From NCBI RefSeq assembly GCF_947581785.1, contig NZ_CANPVO010000028.1:1-44409 (forward strand): a stretch of 44,409 nucleotides of DNA, read 5' to 3'. The notes below the pieces were generated by a model. That model worked only from the letters and a program-made list of their open reading frames with translations, was not told where the DNA came from and did no database searches. Positions 11,962 to 18,774 of this stretch are shown one piece after another. Position 1 is the first letter of the stretch; each line of letters begins with the position of its first letter. This DNA comes from Candidatus Palauibacter polyketidifaciens (GTDB lineage Bacteria > Gemmatimonadota > Gemmatimonadetes > Palauibacterales > Palauibacteraceae). Made by a program: the position numbers and the translations under genes.

Positions 11962-11990
11962 TTGACAGGCACGCGGCAGAGTGCGATCCT
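11962..11990 (+). promoter_or_regulatory. Predicted sigma-70-type promoter of the his operon
   Basis: TTGACA (11962-11967) matches the consensus -35 exactly. After a 17-base spacer comes GATCCT (11985-11990), which matches the -10 consensus at three of six positions. The predicted transcription start (about 11996-11998) lies 1-3 bases before the leader-peptide ATG at 11999. No other good promoter is seen between the dehydratase and hisG. Confidence 0.6.
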
Positions 11991-11998
11991 CCGCGGCC

Positions 11999-12061
11999 AT
12001 GACGAACACCCATGCGTTTTTTGGCCATTATTACTACCACCGCCAGAGCGGAGGCCGGTGA
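11999..12061 (+). CDS. hisL: His leader peptide (20 codons, His/Tyr/Phe-rich)
   Basis: ATG at 11999, TGA at 12059-12061. The peptide begins MTNTHAFFGHYYYHRQ and ends SGGR. It has three His codons (12011, 12026, 12038), three consecutive Tyr codons (12029-12037) and two Phe codons. That is 8 His or aromatic residues in 10 positions, far from the Arg/Ala/Gly composition of random frames in this GC-rich DNA. The control codons sit about 13 bases upstream of one arm of a predicted antiterminator. There is no Shine-Dalgarno sequence, and the predicted transcript begins almost at the ATG, so translation may be leaderless. By analogy with enterobacterial hisL, stalling at these codons would allow transcription into hisG. 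Confidence 0.78.
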   Translation: MTNTHAFFGHYYYHRQSGGR

Positions 12062-12109
12062 TCGTCTAGCTTTATCCTGAACCAAGGTTGCGAACGATCG
12101 ACGCCGGCC
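12053..12109 (+). promoter_or_regulatory. Predicted antiterminator helix of the his attenuator
   Basis: Bases 12053-12065 can pair with 12094-12109: GGCCGG (12053-12058) with CCGGCC (12104-12109), a U-G pair at 12059/12103, a 3-base bulge, then GATCG (12060-12064) with CGATC (12095-12099) and one more A-U pair. The 3' arm reuses seven bases of the terminator's 5' arm, so the two helices exclude each other. The 5' arm lies in the last leader codons and stop, where a ribosome finishing translation would cover it. The pairing was done by hand, without energy calculation. Confidence 0.65.
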
Positions 12110-12131
12110 CCGAGGGGGTCGGCTTTTTTTT
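12103..12131 (+). terminator. Intrinsic terminator (attenuator) upstream of hisG
   Basis: GCCGGCCCC (12103-12111) pairs with GGGGTCGGC (12115-12123) across a GAG loop. The stem is 9 bp with one G-U pair and is followed directly by T8 (12124-12131). It stands 40 bases before the hisG ATG and after the leader peptide. It is the clearest intrinsic terminator in the window. Confidence 0.88.
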
Positions 12132-12170: not shown

Positions 12171-13034
12171 ATGACCCACGAAACGACAAGACTCGCCCTT
12201 CCCAAGGGACGCATGCAGACCGGCGTACTCGACCTGTTGACCGCCGCCGGCGTGCGCGTGGACCTCGGGGAGCGCCGTTACCGTCCGTCCATCTCCGTGG
12301 CCGGATTCAGCGCCAAGCTGCTCAAGCCGCAGAACGTGGTGGAGATGCTCCACGCCGGCTCGCGCGACGTGGGGTTCGCGGGAGCGGACTGGGTCGCGGA
12401 ACTGGACGGAACGCTCGTTGAGCTGCTCGATACCGGGCTCGACCCGGTGCGGGTCGTGGCGGCGGCGCCCGTCTCCGTGGCAGAGCGAGGGCTGGTGGCG
12501 GGTGTCCCCCTAACCATCGCTTCCGAGTACCGGCGGCTCACATCGCGCTGGATCGAGGCGCGCGGCCTCGACGCCACCTTCGTTCGATCCTACGGCGCCA
12601 CCGAGGTGTTCCCGCCCGAAGACGCCGATGTGATCGTCGACAACACCGCCACCGGCGCCACGCTGGAGGCCAACGGCCTCGAGATCGTGGACGAAGTCAT
12701 GCGTTCCTCGACCCGCTTTTATGCGAACCCGCGCGCCCTCGACGACGCGCGGCACCGGGAGCGAATCGAAGACCTCGTTCTGGTGATCGAATCCGTGATC
12801 GAGGCCCGGCGGCGGGTGATGCTTGAGCTCAACGTGGACGCCGGAGGGCTGGACGATCTCGTGGCGGTCCTTCCCTGCATGCGCAGGCCGACGGTATCCC
12901 GGCTGCACGGGGATGGGGGATACGCGATTCGCGTTGCGGTGCCCCGGGACGCCCTGCCGACGTTGATCCCGCTGGTGAAGGCGCGCGGGGGCACGGATCT
13001 CGTCGTGACCGCACCGGGGCAGATCGTCGCATGA
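12171..13034 (+). CDS. hisG: ATP phosphoribosyltransferase, long form
   Basis: 287 residues. First step of histidine synthesis: ATP and PRPP to phosphoribosyl-ATP. The N-terminus has RLALPKGRM (7-15), followed by the bilobal catalytic core with VGFAGADWV, and the PRPP-binding block DVIVDNTATGATLEANGLEIVDEV (about 153-176). The C-terminal ~75 residues form the ACT-like domain of the long HisG (ending GGTDLVVTAPGQIVA), so the enzyme should be hexameric, feedback-inhibited by histidine, and independent of HisZ. The gene follows the attenuator and overlaps hisC by the 4 bases ATGA, which implies translational coupling. Confidence 0.96.
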   Translation: MTHETTRLALPKGRMQTGVLDLLTAAGVRVDLGERRYRPSISVAGFSAKLLKPQNVVEMLHAGSRDVGFAGADWVAELDGTLVELLDTGLDPVRVVAAAPVSVAERGLVAGVPLTIASEYRRLTSRWIEARGLDATFVRSYGATEVFPPEDADVIVDNTATGATLEANGLEIVDEVMRSSTRFYANPRALDDARHRERIEDLVLVIESVIEARRRVMLELNVDAGGLDDLVAVLPCMRRPTVSRLHGDGGYAIRVAVPRDALPTLIPLVKARGGTDLVVTAPGQIVA

Positions 13035-14074
13035 GCCCCGCGGTGGTGAAGGTTCGGGCCGACGAGTTGCTGAGACTCGACCACAACGAGCGCCTCTTTC
13101 CGGCGCCCGAACTGGTCCCTCTCCTCGCCCGCGTGCCGGCGACGGCGCTGACGCGATACCCGGACCCGACAGGGCTGGAGCGACTTCTGGCTCGCCAATG
13201 GGGAGTCGGAGCCGACCGCACCCTCGTCACCGGCGGGGCGGACGACGCGATCGACCGCATCTGCAGGCGGTGGCTCGCCGACGGCAGGGAGATGGTCACC
13301 GTGGTGCCGACGTTCCAGATGATGCCGACCTTCGCCCGGCTCGCGGGCGGACGCGTGCGCGAGATCCCCGCGCTGGACGATCCCGCCCCGCTTGAACCGA
13401 CGCTGGACCGGCTCGGCGAGCGAACCGGACTCGTGACGGTGATCTCTCCCCACAACCCCACGGGCCGGGTCGCTTCCGCGGCGCGGATGCTGGAAATCGC
13501 GGAGCGGCTGCCGAACGGCGCGATGCTGCTCGCCGACCTCGCGTACGTGGAGTTCGCCGACCGCGATCCGACGGCGGCGTTCCTGGAGCGCGACAACATC
13601 CTCGTGGTGCGGACGCTCTCGAAGGCGTGGGGGCTCGCGGGGCTTCGCGTGGGCTATGTGCTGGGGTCGCGGACCGCGATCGCGGAGTTGCGGGCCTCGG
13701 GATCTCCGTTTCCGCTCTCGAGCCCGTCGGTCTGGCTCGCGGAAAGGGCGCTGGAACTCGGAGACCGGGTCACGGCGGACTATGTGGCGGCGGTCCGGTC
13801 CGAACGGGACCGGCTCTACGCGGCGCTCGGCGAAGCGGGGGCGGCGCCGTTCGCCTCGGAGGCGAACTTCATCCTCGCCTCAACGGAACGTGCGGCGGCG
13901 CTGGAGCGCCGATTCCGACGGTCCGGGATCGCGGTACGCCTCTTCGCGGACCGGCGGGACCTGATCCGCATCACCGTTCCCGGGGACGAGGAGGTGTTCC
14001 AGCGCCTTCTTTCGGTACTCGCCGCGGACTCCCCGGCCGCGGCTTCGACCATCAACGGAAGAGGAGTTCGATGA
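13031..14074 (+). CDS. hisC: Histidinol-phosphate aminotransferase
   Basis: 347 residues, fold-type I PLP aminotransferase. Converts imidazole-acetol phosphate and glutamate to histidinol phosphate. Visible landmarks: LDHNE (16-20), SPHNPTG (139-145), D169 and Y172 in ADLAYVEF, the PLP lysine K198 in TLSKAWGLAG, and R206 in GLRVGYV. The family overlaps with aromatic aminotransferases, so side activity on Phe or Tyr is possible, which is relevant to the Tyr codons in the leader. The gene overlaps both hisG and hisB through ATGA. Confidence 0.94.
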   Translation: MSPAVVKVRADELLRLDHNERLFPAPELVPLLARVPATALTRYPDPTGLERLLARQWGVGADRTLVTGGADDAIDRICRRWLADGREMVTVVPTFQMMPTFARLAGGRVREIPALDDPAPLEPTLDRLGERTGLVTVISPHNPTGRVASAARMLEIAERLPNGAMLLADLAYVEFADRDPTAAFLERDNILVVRTLSKAWGLAGLRVGYVLGSRTAIAELRASGSPFPLSSPSVWLAERALELGDRVTADYVAAVRSERDRLYAALGEAGAAPFASEANFILASTERAAALERRFRRSGIAVRLFADRRDLIRITVPGDEEVFQRLLSVLAADSPAAASTINGRGVR

Positions 14075-14745
14075 GCGCCGACGATGGTGCCCCCAGAACG
14101 GGGGAACGAACGCGGGAGACGCTCGAAACCCGCGTCGAGGCACGAGTGAACGTGGACATCCGCGGATCCGGCCGCGTGCAGACGGGTCTGCCCTTCCTCG
14201 ATCACATGATCGGAGCCGCCGCCTTCCACGGCGGGATGACGCTGGATCTCCGCGCCCGCGGCGATCTGGACGTCGACGATCACCACACGGTGGAGGACTG
14301 CGGACTCGTCTTCGGCGCCGCGCTAAGGGACGCGCTGGGGCAAAGGCAGGGGATCCGGCGTTTCGGCTACGCCTACGCGCCTCTCGACGAGGCGCTCGCG
14401 CGGGCGGTCGTGGACCTTTCCGGCCGGCCGTTCGCCGCGGTGGATCTGGGACTTCGGCGAGAGATGCTGGGCACCGTGGCGACGGAGAATCTGAGCCACT
14501 TCTTCGGCTCGATCGCAACGGCGGCACGCCTCACGCTTCACCTCGACGTGATCCGGGGAGAGAACGACCACCACCGCGCCGAGGCCGCGTTCAAGGCCTT
14601 CGGGCTGGCCCTCGCCGAGGCGGTCGGTCGACGCGCCACGGCCGGAGTCCCGAGTACGAAGGGGATGCTGGATTCGGGTGAGGACCCCGCTGCGCAGACC
14701 GCGAAGGACTCGAGGGTGGAGATCCTCGAGACGGTGTCGCCATGA
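14071..14745 (+). CDS. hisB: Imidazoleglycerol-phosphate dehydratase (monofunctional)
   Basis: 224 residues, starting at ATG 14071 behind GAGGAG and overlapping the hisC stop. Dehydrates imidazole-glycerol phosphate to imidazole-acetol phosphate. The two Mn-binding repeats are clear: D70-HHTVEDCG (70-78) and ENDHHRAEAAFKAFG (164-178), plus GLPFLDHM (39-46) and GVPSTKG (192-198). There is no N-terminal HAD phosphatase domain, unlike the bifunctional enterobacterial HisB, so histidinol-phosphate phosphatase must be encoded elsewhere. The next gene overlaps by ATGA. Confidence 0.96.
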   Translation: MSADDGAPRTGERTRETLETRVEARVNVDIRGSGRVQTGLPFLDHMIGAAAFHGGMTLDLRARGDLDVDDHHTVEDCGLVFGAALRDALGQRQGIRRFGYAYAPLDEALARAVVDLSGRPFAAVDLGLRREMLGTVATENLSHFFGSIATAARLTLHLDVIRGENDHHRAEAAFKAFGLALAEAVGRRATAGVPSTKGMLDSGEDPAAQTAKDSRVEILETVSP

Positions 14746-15422
14746 ACGCCGCCCGCATCGGAACGGGAGGGGAAGTCGGCATCGTCCCTACGGGCGTGGC
14801 AAATCTCGAAGCCGTCCGGTCGGCCTTCCGGCGGCTCGGACGGACGCCGCGGGTCCTGGATTCGGCGGCGGACATCGAGCGTGCGGAGTACGTCGTCCTG
14901 CCCGGCGTCGGGTCGTTTGCCGACGGGATGGCCGAGTTGCGGCGCCGGGGCTGGGAGGAGGCGCTCCGCCGCCGTGTCGAGTCGCTCCGGCCGACGCTGG
15001 GGATCTGTCTCGGGTTGCAGTTGTTGTGCGACGCGAGCGACGAGGCTCCCGGCATTCCCGGGCTTGGCTGCGTTTCGGGGCGGTCGGTGCGGCTGGACGG
15101 CGCCGGCCGCGTGCCGCAGCTGGGCTGGAACCGGATTGCGGCCCCGGGTGCGGCCGTCTTCCTGCGTCCGGGCATCGTCTACTTCGCCAACTCCTATCGG
15201 CTTGAAGAGGTTCCGGCGGGATGGACGGGGGCGACGGGCCGCCACGGGACCCGCTTCGTCGCCGGGTTCGAGCGGGGCGGAGTCCTTGCGTGCCAGTTCC
15301 ATCCGGAGTTGTCGGGGCGGATTGGCGCCGCCCTGCTGAACCGCTGGCTTGAAGAGGCTCCGGCGGCGGCGGAGGCCTCGGAGGGGATGACGGACCGGAC
15401 CCGCATGGCGGCCGCGTGCTGA
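14742..15422 (+). CDS. hisH: Imidazole glycerol phosphate synthase, glutaminase subunit
   Basis: 226 residues, class I glutamine amidotransferase. The catalytic triad is visible: Cys89 in GICLGLQLL, His187 and Glu189 in QFHPELSG; the PGVGSF oxyanion-side motif is at 54-59. It hydrolyses glutamine and channels ammonia to HisF. Two usual family positions differ: the first strand reads GIVPTGVANL rather than a DYGxGN pattern, and the common HSY reads NSY (150-152). The last ~20 residues are an Ala/Glu/Arg-rich tail overlapping the start of hisF by 7 bases. Confidence 0.95.
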   Translation: MNAARIGTGGEVGIVPTGVANLEAVRSAFRRLGRTPRVLDSAADIERAEYVVLPGVGSFADGMAELRRRGWEEALRRRVESLRPTLGICLGLQLLCDASDEAPGIPGLGCVSGRSVRLDGAGRVPQLGWNRIAAPGAAVFLRPGIVYFANSYRLEEVPAGWTGATGRHGTRFVAGFERGGVLACQFHPELSGRIGAALLNRWLEEAPAAAEASEGMTDRTRMAAAC

Positions 15423-16183
15423 ACGTCCGCGTCATCCCGTGCCTGGACGTGAAGGACGGCCGGGTCGTGAAGGGGGTCCGCTTCGCGAATCTCGCGGACC
15501 AGGGCGATCCGGCGGCTCTGGCTCGCCGCTACGAGCGGCAGGGCGCGGATGAGATCGTCATCCTCGATGTGTCGGCGACGGCGGACGGACGGCTGGCACG
15601 GTTCGAGACGATCGGCCGCGTGCGGGATGAGATCTCGATCCCGCTCACGGTCGGGGGCGGCGTGCGGACGGTGGAGGACGGGGGCTCCCTGCTGCAGGCG
15701 GGCGCGGACCGGGTGTCGGTGAACACCGCGGCCGTGGAGCAGCCCGAGCTTCTCGCCGGACTGTCGTCGCGCTTCGGTGCCCAGTGCGCGGTTCTCGCGC
15801 TGGATGCCGCGCGGGCGCCATCCGATGGCTGTCCGAGCGGCTTCGAGGTCCTGACCCACTCGGGGAGCAACCGTACCGGGCTCGACGCCGCGGAATGGGC
15901 TCGGCGCGGGACGGAGATGGGGGCCGGAGAGATCCTGCTCACGAGCTTCGACCGCGACGGGACGCGCAGCGGATACGACCTGGCGCTGATCGGAGCGATC
16001 CGCGAGGCCGTGACGGTGCCGATTGTGGCCTCCGGCGGCGGTGCGCACCCCGGCCACATGCGCGCCGCCGTGGACGCGGGCGCCGACGCGGTGCTCGCGG
16101 CGTCGATCTTCCACCAGGGCGACTGGTCGATCGGCAGACTCAAGGATCGACTGCAGCAGCTCGGCGTCGTGGTGCGTCGATGA
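15416..16183 (+). CDS. hisF: Imidazole glycerol phosphate synthase, cyclase subunit
   Basis: 255 residues from a GTG start inside the end of hisH. A (beta/alpha)8 barrel that, with ammonia from HisH, forms imidazole-glycerol phosphate and AICAR from PRFAR. Catalytic D11 (PCLDV) and D130 (LALDAA) fall at the canonical positions. The phosphate-binding blocks TVGGGVR (78-84) and ASGGG (205-209) are intact, as is LLTSFDRDGT (174-183). It overlaps the next gene by ATGA. Confidence 0.96.
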   Translation: MLNVRVIPCLDVKDGRVVKGVRFANLADQGDPAALARRYERQGADEIVILDVSATADGRLARFETIGRVRDEISIPLTVGGGVRTVEDGGSLLQAGADRVSVNTAAVEQPELLAGLSSRFGAQCAVLALDAARAPSDGCPSGFEVLTHSGSNRTGLDAAEWARRGTEMGAGEILLTSFDRDGTRSGYDLALIGAIREAVTVPIVASGGGAHPGHMRAAVDAGADAVLAASIFHQGDWSIGRLKDRLQQLGVVVRR

Positions 16184-18774
16184 TCATCCCATCCATCGAC
16201 CTCATGGGCGGCCGGGCCGTGCAGCTTCGCCAAGGCGCCACGCTTGAAATCGACGCGGGCGATCCGCGGCCTCTCGCGGAGAGGTTCGCGGTCGCGGGGG
16301 AAGTCGCGGTCATCGATCTCGATGCGGCTCTCGGCCGCGGAGACAACGCCGCCCTCATCAGGGAACTGCTGCCACTCGCACCGTGCCGGGTAGGCGGCGG
16401 CATTCGGTCCCGTGAGGCGGCGCTCGACTGGCTCGACGCGGGCGCGCGGCAAGTGATCCTGGGCACGGCGGCGAATCCCGATGTCCTGGGCGAACTCCCG
16501 GCGGAGCGCGTGATCGCCGCGCTCGACGCGCGCGATGGCGAGGTCGTCGTCGAGGGCTGGCAGCGCGGGACGGGTCGCGGCGTCATCGGGCGGATGGAGG
16601 AGCTCGATGGTCTCGCGAGCGGCTACCTGGTCACCTTCGTGGAGGTCGAAGGCACGCTGGGCGGGATCCCGCTGGATCGCGTCGCCGCCCTCGTCGCGGC
16701 TGCGGGATCCGCCCGCGTCACGGTGGCGGGGGGCGTCCGCGAGGTTTCGGAGATCGCGGCACTCGACCGAATGGGCGCGGACGCGCAGGTGGGGATGGCG
16801 ATCTACAGCGGACGCATGGAGCTGGGCGACGCGATCGCGGCTCCTCTGAAGTCCGACCGGGCCGACGGACTTTGGGCGACAGTGGTCGAGGACACGGGCG
16901 GGCGCGCGCTCGGGCTCGCATGGTCGAGCGCGGAGAGTCTGCGCACCGCCGTCAGGGAACGGCGCGGCGTCTACCAGAGCCGCTCACGGGGGCTCTGGAG
17001 GAAGGGTGAGACGTCCGGCGCCACGCAGGAACTCGTCCGGGTGGCGGCGGACTGCGACCGCGACACTCTGCGCTTCACGGTACGACAGCACGGGACCGGC
17101 TTCTGTCACACGGGCACCCGGACGTGTTTCGACGATCCGGTCGACCTCGAGACCCGCCTTCGCGAGCGGCTCGCCGACCCGGAGCCGGGCTCGCTCACCG
17201 CGCGGCTCGCCGGGGATCCGGAACTGCTGCGGGGGAAACTCGTCGAGGAGGCGCAGGAACTGGCCGAAGCCGGATCGAAGGCGGACGCGGTCGCGGAGTT
17301 CGCGGACCTCTACTACTTCGCCCTCACGCGGCTCCTGAAGGCCGGCGGCTCCCTCGAGGATGTACGTCTCGAACTCGAGCGGCGCGCCCTCAAGGTGCGT
17401 CGCCGAGCCCCGAGGGCGCCGGGGGAGGCGACCGGTCGGACGGCTTCGGCACCCGCCGCCGCGGCGGGCGGGATCCTGCCGCCGATCGGCCTCGATGAGG
17501 CCGTGCGGGCGGTGCGCTCGCCGGCGCTCGACCCGGCAGCCCTCGAGGTCGCGCGAACGATCCTGGACGATGTCGAGCGGCGCGGGGAGCCGGCGCTCCG
17601 CGAGCACGCCGAGCGGCTCGGCGACCTCGAGCCGGGCGACGATCTGCTCCTCGACCGGTCGGCTCTCGAGCGCGCGGCGGAAGCACTGCATGCCGACGAC
17701 CGCGAATTGCTGAACCGCGTGGCGGACCGGATCCGCGCGTTCGCTGAGGCCCAGCGGGCATCCGCGAACGACCTCGAGACGCCGGTCGCGGGCGGTCGCG
17801 GCGGCCATCGGCTCGCCCCCGTCGGAGCGGCCGGCTGTTACGCGCCCGGGGGGCGCTTCCCTCTCCCGTCCTCGGTGCTCATGACCGTCATCCCCGCGAG
17901 GGTGGCGGGCGTGGACGACGTGTGGGCCGCATCGCCGCGCCCGACCGCGGCGGCCCGGGCCGCGGCCTTCATCGCCGGCGCGGACGGCCTGCTGGCCATC
18001 GGCGGCGCGCAGGCGATCGGCGCGCTCGCCTTCGGCGTCGGAGGCGTCTCCCGCTGCGAGAAGATCGTGGGGCCGGGCAACCGGTTCGTCACCGCGGCCA
18101 AGCGCCTCCTCTACGGCCGGGTCGGCCTCGACACCATCGCCGGTCCATCCGAGCTGCTCGTCGTCGCCTCGCCGGATGCGGAGCCGGCGCGCGTCGCGGC
18201 CGACCTGCTCGCCCAGGCCGAGCACGACCCGGACGCCGTCCCGCTCCTGTGCGCCTTCGACGAAGCGACCGTCGAGGCCGTACGCGAAGAGACCGAGCGG
18301 CAGCTGGCCACGCTCCCGACCGCACCGATCGCGCGTCAGGCCCTGGCGGCCGGCGGCGCCCTCCTCGTGGCAAGCCTCGACGAGGCCGCCGCCATCTGCG
18401 ACGCCGTGGCGCCGGAGCACCTGCAACTGCACGGCGAGCGGGCCGAGCCGCTGGCTCCGCGCGTCCACCGGTACGGATCGCTCTTCATGGGGGCGGCCAC
18501 ACCCGAGGCGGCCGGCGACTACGGAGCCGGACCGAACCACACGCTTCCCACGTCGGGCGCCGCGGCGTTCGACTCGGGACTCTCGGTGTTCTCGTTCCTG
18601 CGTCGACCGACGTGGCTGACGCTCTCGCCCGAAGATGACGCCTACGAGGATCTGCTGCGGGACACCGCCGCGCTCGCCCGACTGGAGGGGCTGGAAGCGC
18701 ACGCGCTTTCGGCGGAACTCCGGCTCACGGCGGCGGCCCGGGGAGATCGCCGTCGGAGGGTCCGCGCCTCGTAA
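16180..18774 (+). CDS. hisA-hisI-hisE-hisD: Tetrafunctional HisA-HisI-HisE-HisD fusion protein
   Basis: One uninterrupted 864-residue frame from ATG 16180 (ATGA overlap with hisF). HisA, about 1-223: D7 in PSIDLMGG, D116 in ALDARDG, T152, phosphate loops VGGGIR and VAGGVR. HisI, about 225-318: YQSRSRGLWRKGETSG, D291-C292-D-x-D, Cys309 and Cys316 of the zinc site. HisE, about 322-405: KLVEEAQELAEA and EFADLYYF. An Ala/Pro/Arg-rich linker (408-434) leads to HisD, 435-855: GCYAPGGRFPLPSSV, GPGNRFVTAAKRL, IAGPSELLVVAS, zinc ligands in QAEHD (679-683), APEHLQL with E746-H747, and NHTLPTSG. It covers steps 2, 3, 4 and the final oxidation. All four active sites look intact. HisI-HisE-HisD is the fungal HIS4 order. 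Confidence 0.95.
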   Translation: MIIPSIDLMGGRAVQLRQGATLEIDAGDPRPLAERFAVAGEVAVIDLDAALGRGDNAALIRELLPLAPCRVGGGIRSREAALDWLDAGARQVILGTAANPDVLGELPAERVIAALDARDGEVVVEGWQRGTGRGVIGRMEELDGLASGYLVTFVEVEGTLGGIPLDRVAALVAAAGSARVTVAGGVREVSEIAALDRMGADAQVGMAIYSGRMELGDAIAAPLKSDRADGLWATVVEDTGGRALGLAWSSAESLRTAVRERRGVYQSRSRGLWRKGETSGATQELVRVAADCDRDTLRFTVRQHGTGFCHTGTRTCFDDPVDLETRLRERLADPEPGSLTARLAGDPELLRGKLVEEAQELAEAGSKADAVAEFADLYYFALTRLLKAGGSLEDVRLELERRALKVRRRAPRAPGEATGRTASAPAAAAGGILPPIGLDEAVRAVRSPALDPAALEVARTILDDVERRGEPALREHAERLGDLEPGDDLLLDRSALERAAEALHADDRELLNRVADRIRAFAEAQRASANDLETPVAGGRGGHRLAPVGAAGCYAPGGRFPLPSSVLMTVIPARVAGVDDVWAASPRPTAAARAAAFIAGADGLLAIGGAQAIGALAFGVGGVSRCEKIVGPGNRFVTAAKRLLYGRVGLDTIAGPSELLVVASPDAEPARVAADLLAQAEHDPDAVPLLCAFDEATVEAVREETERQLATLPTAPIARQALAAGGALLVASLDEAAAICDAVAPEHLQLHGERAEPLAPRVHRYGSLFMGAATPEAAGDYGAGPNHTLPTSGAAAFDSGLSVFSFLRRPTWLTLSPEDDAYEDLLRDTAALARLEGLEAHALSAELRLTAAARGDRRRRVRAS

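Follow-up and report, generated by a model that had tools for sequence, protein, structure and literature searches.

Sequences upstream of hisG in Candidatus Palauibacter, a member of the Gemmatimonadota, very probably act as a ribosome-mediated attenuator that controls transcription of the hisGCBHF(AIED) operon. We base this reading on the elements present, on the energy-based mutual exclusivity of two RNA helices, on conservation and on the pattern of substitutions. Judging by the leaders that we surveyed, Palauibacter alone has swapped a run of His codons for a conserved mixture of His, Phe and Tyr codons.

The leader region and the histidine operon

The window analyzed here is the whole stretch of 44,409 nucleotides, in which the leader region (11962–12131, + strand) separates hisG from a divergent threonine/serine dehydratase-like gene. 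This hisG has an identical counterpart in MAG SB0661_bin_41, and its next relatives also belong to Candidatus Palauibacter, a group of Gemmatimonadota from sponges, corals, sediments and saline soils (PMC10469786). The leader unit is present once in the genome, and the following genes lie downstream of it.

12171–13034, + strand: hisG, ATP phosphoribosyltransferase, the putative first regulated gene (TIGR00070 and TIGR03455, both above cut-off)
13031–14074, + strand: hisC, histidinol-phosphate aminotransferase (TIGR01141 is the top match, under its cut-off)
14167–14745, + strand: hisB, imidazoleglycerol-phosphate dehydratase
14742–15422, + strand: hisH
15416–16183, + strand: hisF
16180–18774, + strand: hisA-hisI-hisE-hisD, one fused ORF of 864 aa

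Fusion of HisA to HisIE is general across phyla for this type of operon. The additional fusion to HisD is unbroken in 8 of 8 Palauibacter loci of judgeable length, and in loci L086 and L094.

Elements of the putative attenuator

Reading from the promoter to the end of the terminator, the leader region contains the following features.

11962–11967, + strand: −35 box TTGACA, kept in 14 of 14 Palauibacter genomes
11985–11990, + strand: −10-like box GATCCT, after a 17-nt spacer and 8 nt upstream of the ATG
11999–12061, + strand: leader ORF MTNTHAFFGHYYYHRQSGGR, 20 codons, ATG at 11999 and stop TGA at 12059–12061, without a Shine-Dalgarno sequence
12001–12010, + strand: arm 1 (protector), which pairs with 12057–12066
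12011–12040, + strand: regulatory codon block, with 3 His, 3 Tyr and 2 Phe in ten codons (HAFFGHYYYH)
12053–12066, + strand: arm 2 (5′ arm of the antiterminator), which overlaps the leader stop codon; 12053–12065 is invariant in 14 of 14
12094–12109, + strand: arm 3 (3′ arm of the antiterminator), of which 12103–12109 doubles as the 5′ arm of the terminator
12103–12131, + strand: intrinsic terminator with 9 pairs, a loop of 3 and T8, conserved in 14 of 14

Across the six frames of the window, at least seven His, Phe or Tyr per ten residues occur in this leader only. GATCCT matches TATAAT weakly, which is why a generic promoter scan misses the −10 box; it is kept in 12 of 13 Palauibacter species and reads GAGGTT, at unchanged spacing, in G003, the most divergent member of the genus. 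The same promoter layout recurs in most of the 124 His-rich leaders of the wider survey described below. TTGAC lies 33–40 nt upstream of the start codon in 90 of these (0.47 expected from shuffling), and the best −10 hexamer, which ends 5–10 nt upstream of the start codon, has A at position 2 and T at the last position in most. Just 12 of the 124 have GGAG, GAGG or AGGA 3–20 nt upstream of the start codon. Usual promoter spacing puts the transcript start at, or a few bases from, the leader start codon. Given this spacing and the usual lack of a Shine-Dalgarno sequence, the Palauibacter leader is probably leaderless, with its ATG at, or at most about 3 nt from, the predicted +1.

Folded alone, the antiterminator forms 13 pairs (12053–12065 with 12094–12109) at −26.0 kcal/mol, a value equalled by 5 of 200 shuffles, and the terminator reaches −19.0 kcal/mol, equalled by 4 of 200. 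The two helices have bases 12103–12109 in common and are thus mutually exclusive. The terminator, also called by a terminator scan, consists of a hairpin at 12103–12123 followed by T8 at 12124–12131. In the fold of the full leader RNA, arm 1 is paired to arm 2 alongside the terminator, suggesting that termination is the default without translation. An earlier note on this DNA had claimed the TTGACA box, a 20-codon frame with eight His, Tyr or Phe in ten positions, a 13-pair antiterminator and a T8 terminator that shares seven bases with it, and our analysis recovers all four at the positions given above. Separately, in the folds of two leaders, L006 and L014, GGCCAY in the leader ORF (12023–12027) can pair with the 3′ arm of the terminator; such pairing would enclose the antiterminator and is a possible extra stabilizer.

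The arrangement of these elements suggests how the attenuator would work. Transcription would start at, or a few bases from, the leader ATG, and a ribosome would bind the 5′ end of the leaderless RNA and translate the 20-codon peptide. If charged tRNA-His, and probably also that for Tyr or Phe, were scarce, the ribosome would stall within 12011–12040 with its front edge just short of arm 2 (12053); arm 2 would then pair with arm 3, the terminator would be blocked, and hisG would be transcribed. If amino acids were plentiful, the ribosome would proceed to the stop codon at 12059 and cover arm 2, the terminator would form, and transcription would end in T8. With no translation, arm 1 would pair with arm 2 and termination would follow by default. 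A response to each single amino acid is likewise a prediction of this scheme. The geometry of stall and stop, which the earlier note had also proposed, fits the end of the last His codon (12040), the start of arm 2 (12053) and the stop codon (12059). It depends on the usual length of the ribosome footprint, which would leave arm 2 free in the one case and cover it in the other.

Conservation within Palauibacter

Our search of the genus covered 17 genomes and found hisG in 14, representing 13 species and a second genome of the source species. All 14 keep TTGACA, the leader frame, both antiterminator arms and the terminator, and 12053–12065 and 12094–12109 are almost letter-identical among them; conservation of this extent excludes a chance origin of the unit. 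A conserved leader frame in relatives had been named in advance as a test of the attenuator reading, and the frame is present in every hisG-bearing member. The terminator sequence ranges from GCCGGCCCCGAGGGGGTCGGC to GCCGGCCCGGGGTGGCCGGC with its pairing retained. The leader ORF of G003 opens with another sequence (ATGCAACACGAT), and its arm 2 ends in GATCGTG in place of GATCGTC; arm 1 differs as well, reading CACGAT, and retains complementarity to ATCGTG. As read from these letters, the protector helix of G003 is re-formed with changed bases.

Some members of the genus differ in gene content. The three genomes in which hisG is missing are G005, G012 and G013, two of which are 2.2–2.5 Mb in size, and G013 is also without detectable prephenate dehydratase and prephenate dehydrogenase. 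The members that lack hisG are possibly His and aromatic auxotrophs. In G003, whose genome is 90% complete, prephenate dehydratase was not found; its hisG leader (L014), MQHDTWYAGHLYHHRWSGGR, contains two Trp codons.

Related leaders in other phyla

A survey of the class with the HisG family gave a match in 212 of 295 genomes, and we read 156 distinct regions upstream of hisG, taken from class members and from named genomes belonging to other phyla; Gemmatimonadota, Planctomycetota, Spirochaetota and others are represented. In 124 of the 156 (13 from Palauibacter and 111 from outside it), hisG is preceded by a comparable leader ORF rich in His; examples are MKRAQLVRQHHHHDSPTGSVVIEVCA, MTFSARHHQHHHHHPLPGWSIVV from a MAG labelled Planctomycetota, and MITLGTGNINRLHHHGHHGSRSRHGGR from a MAG labelled Spirochaetes. 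Nearly all of the named-genome set is positive, and such an ORF occurs in about 3% of control segments.

Among the 99 leaders scored for a terminator, complementarity between arm 2 and arm 3 reaches p≤0.05 in 58 (12 of 13 in Palauibacter and 46 of 86 elsewhere), against about 5 expected with shuffled arm 2, a count drawn from related and hence non-independent sequences. In relatives, arm 2 mostly starts 4–11 nt 3′ of the last His codon, a position that would stay uncovered if the ribosome stalled. In most class members arm 2 is inside the ORF, directly after the His codons, which explains why a screen for antiterminators centered on the stop codon missed most of them. Across 61 aligned class members, a GACGGG block directly 3′ of the His codons duplicates the 3′ arm of the terminator, GACGGGCCGCG, and both are complementary to the CGGCCCGTC arm.

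These 61 members also allowed the covariance of the leader to be assessed, a check that the earlier note had suggested. It came out clearly for the terminator helix, with 97% of cells paired and 12 double changes (0 of 500 shuffles equal). For the antiterminator helix of arms 2 and 3 the figures do not carry a strong claim of covariation: 89% of cells are paired, 318 compared with 314.8 in shuffles (11 of 500 equal), and 4 cells are changed on both sides. The arms are nearly invariant, which accounts for the scarcity of compensatory change. The conserved frame, arms and terminator, and the recurrence of the same layout in other phyla, support the assignment to the his attenuator class made in that note, which had missed the probable leaderless start and a His/Phe/Tyr mix that is exceptional even among these relatives.

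HisG of the Palauibacter type occurs at 54–68% identity in MAGs labelled Planctomycetota, Spirochaetes and others (L075–L112), whereas HisG from other genera of the same family is just 26–28% identical to that of Palauibacter. This pattern suggests transfer of the whole his operon together with its leader.

A mixed His/Phe/Tyr code

Outside Palauibacter, all 111 comparable leaders are rich in His, and Phe, Tyr or Trp is absent from the His core in 106 and occurs once in 5; the pure-His state extends to sister genera of the same family (L167–L170). Within Palauibacter, the core holds four or five such residues in 12 leaders; that of the thirteenth, from G003, holds one, and more Tyr and Trp lie beyond it. 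Three His positions are unchanged across the 12 close species. One could take all of this to mean that the leader senses His only and that its Tyr and Phe codons sense nothing, having been left behind by drift; a single transition turns CAC (His) into TAC (Tyr). We consider this reading unlikely, although it deserves serious weight, in view of how the remaining codons have evolved. In the same 12 species, the five Phe/Tyr positions have undergone about 6–7 changes, every one of them within His, Phe and Tyr, whereas leader codons 6, 9, 16 and 17 vary freely. The probability that a single change stays within this set is 0.07–0.13 for Phe codons and 0.33–0.42 for Tyr codons, and a product estimate that treats the events as independent puts the chance of all changes doing so at about 1e-4. 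The leader moreover prefers TTT, TAT and CAT, despite the 4–8 times greater use of TTC, TAC and CAC in the nine genes counted nearby. Given the confined changes and the preference for low-GC codons, we think it likely that the leader responds to Tyr and Phe besides His, a conclusion less certain than attenuation itself.

Because exchanges between Phe and Tyr keep chemistry as well as aromatic identity, they would also suit a nascent-chain arrest peptide, in which aromatic residues in the exit tunnel sense a ligand in place of tRNA charging. This explanation is highly improbable: the plain His runs of relatives vary in position and length and some occur in very short peptides, unlike known tunnel arrest, and the aromatic residues are placed differently in G003. 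The divergent orientation of the adjoining gene could be taken to favor a hairpin that constitutively ends transcription coming from upstream, with the leader ORF incidental, but we find this scarcely credible, as promoter, ORF and terminator are on the same strand as hisG at fixed spacing in 14 of 14 genomes and the frame is kept while its codons vary. A histidine T-box riboswitch, a form of control that some Firmicutes and Actinobacteria apply to his genes (PMC9413887), has a negligible chance of being correct, since the leader matches neither the T-box covariance model nor any other Rfam family at gathering score or E≤10 and contains a leader ORF instead.

HisC and aromatic metabolism

A response of the attenuator to Tyr and Phe might be explained if HisC of Palauibacter doubles as an aromatic aminotransferase, which is possible by analogy: HspAT of M. 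tuberculosis has moderate activity on aromatic substrates, and cross-over functions have been reported elsewhere (PMC4703992). The Palauibacter genome encodes prephenate dehydratase and a weak match to prephenate dehydrogenase, apparently in a fused chorismate mutase protein, so that the organism may need an aromatic transamination step. Apart from possibly HisC, the his operon contains no Phe/Tyr enzyme. The genome carries about 20 class I/II aminotransferases, and the idea that HisC is the sole candidate for an aromatic aminotransferase is therefore not supported.

We compared the HisC pocket with those of 49 relatives, following the comparison of M. tuberculosis HspAT and ArAT (PMC4703992). 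At the position equivalent to Tyr127/Phe110, Palauibacter has Phe, as do 49 of 49 relatives, most of which have pure-His leaders; at that equivalent to Tyr261/Phe246, Phe occurs in 13 of 13 Palauibacter and 10 of 49 others. By these residues, the pocket does not cleanly set Palauibacter apart. At pheA, tyrA, trpE and the DAHP synthase gene of Palauibacter, we found no convincing Phe, Tyr or Trp leader. Tyr, Phe and His are among the common predicted auxotrophies of Palauibacterales (PMC10469786), which makes scarcity of these amino acids plausible.

Collectively, we propose a model in which a leaderless attenuator senses the charging of His, Tyr and Phe tRNAs together, tying histidine synthesis to aromatic supply, and evolved in Palauibacter from a His-only sensor, possibly because HisC there also catalyzes the final reaction leading to Tyr and Phe. 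We advance it tentatively, as plausible but short of probable.

Comparison with known attenuators

The leader resembles enterobacterial hisL (RF00514) in its short ORF with His codons, in the his operon downstream and in its mutually exclusive antiterminator and terminator. It differs in that it does not match the His_leader covariance model at gathering score or E≤10, has no Shine-Dalgarno sequence and a probable leaderless start, mixes His, Tyr and Phe codons, and has arm 2 immediately 3′ of the regulatory codons. The earlier note had considered such an attenuator notable outside Proteobacteria. This holds in part, as his leader peptides have been reported in Firmicutes, both for hisZ/hisS* (PMC2965389) and for the his operons of several lineages (PMC9413887). 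Those leaders also combine His codons with a terminator, but they have three to five consecutive His codons, whereas the Palauibacter leader has mixed codons and a different sequence, in another phylum. The ilvBNC operon of Corynebacterium glutamicum has a leaderless IlvL, MTIIRLVVVTARRLP, whose start codon and transcription start are one nucleotide apart (PMC11857589). Like the Palauibacter leader, it carries codons for three amino acids and a transcription start adjacent to its start codon, the latter predicted in Palauibacter. All three amino acids are made by the branched-chain pathway that ilvBNC serves, however, whereas the his pathway yields neither Tyr nor Phe.

In the open-access literature searched we found no prior report for Gemmatimonadota, Planctomycetota or Spirochaetota, a scope that leaves priority unproven. 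By the leaders compared here, leader-peptide control of histidine synthesis would extend to these three phyla, with a recurring leaderless architecture. Palauibacter would further offer a natural case of sensor retuning, in which a His-only ancestor gave rise to a His/Tyr/Phe code in one genus, where it was then kept.
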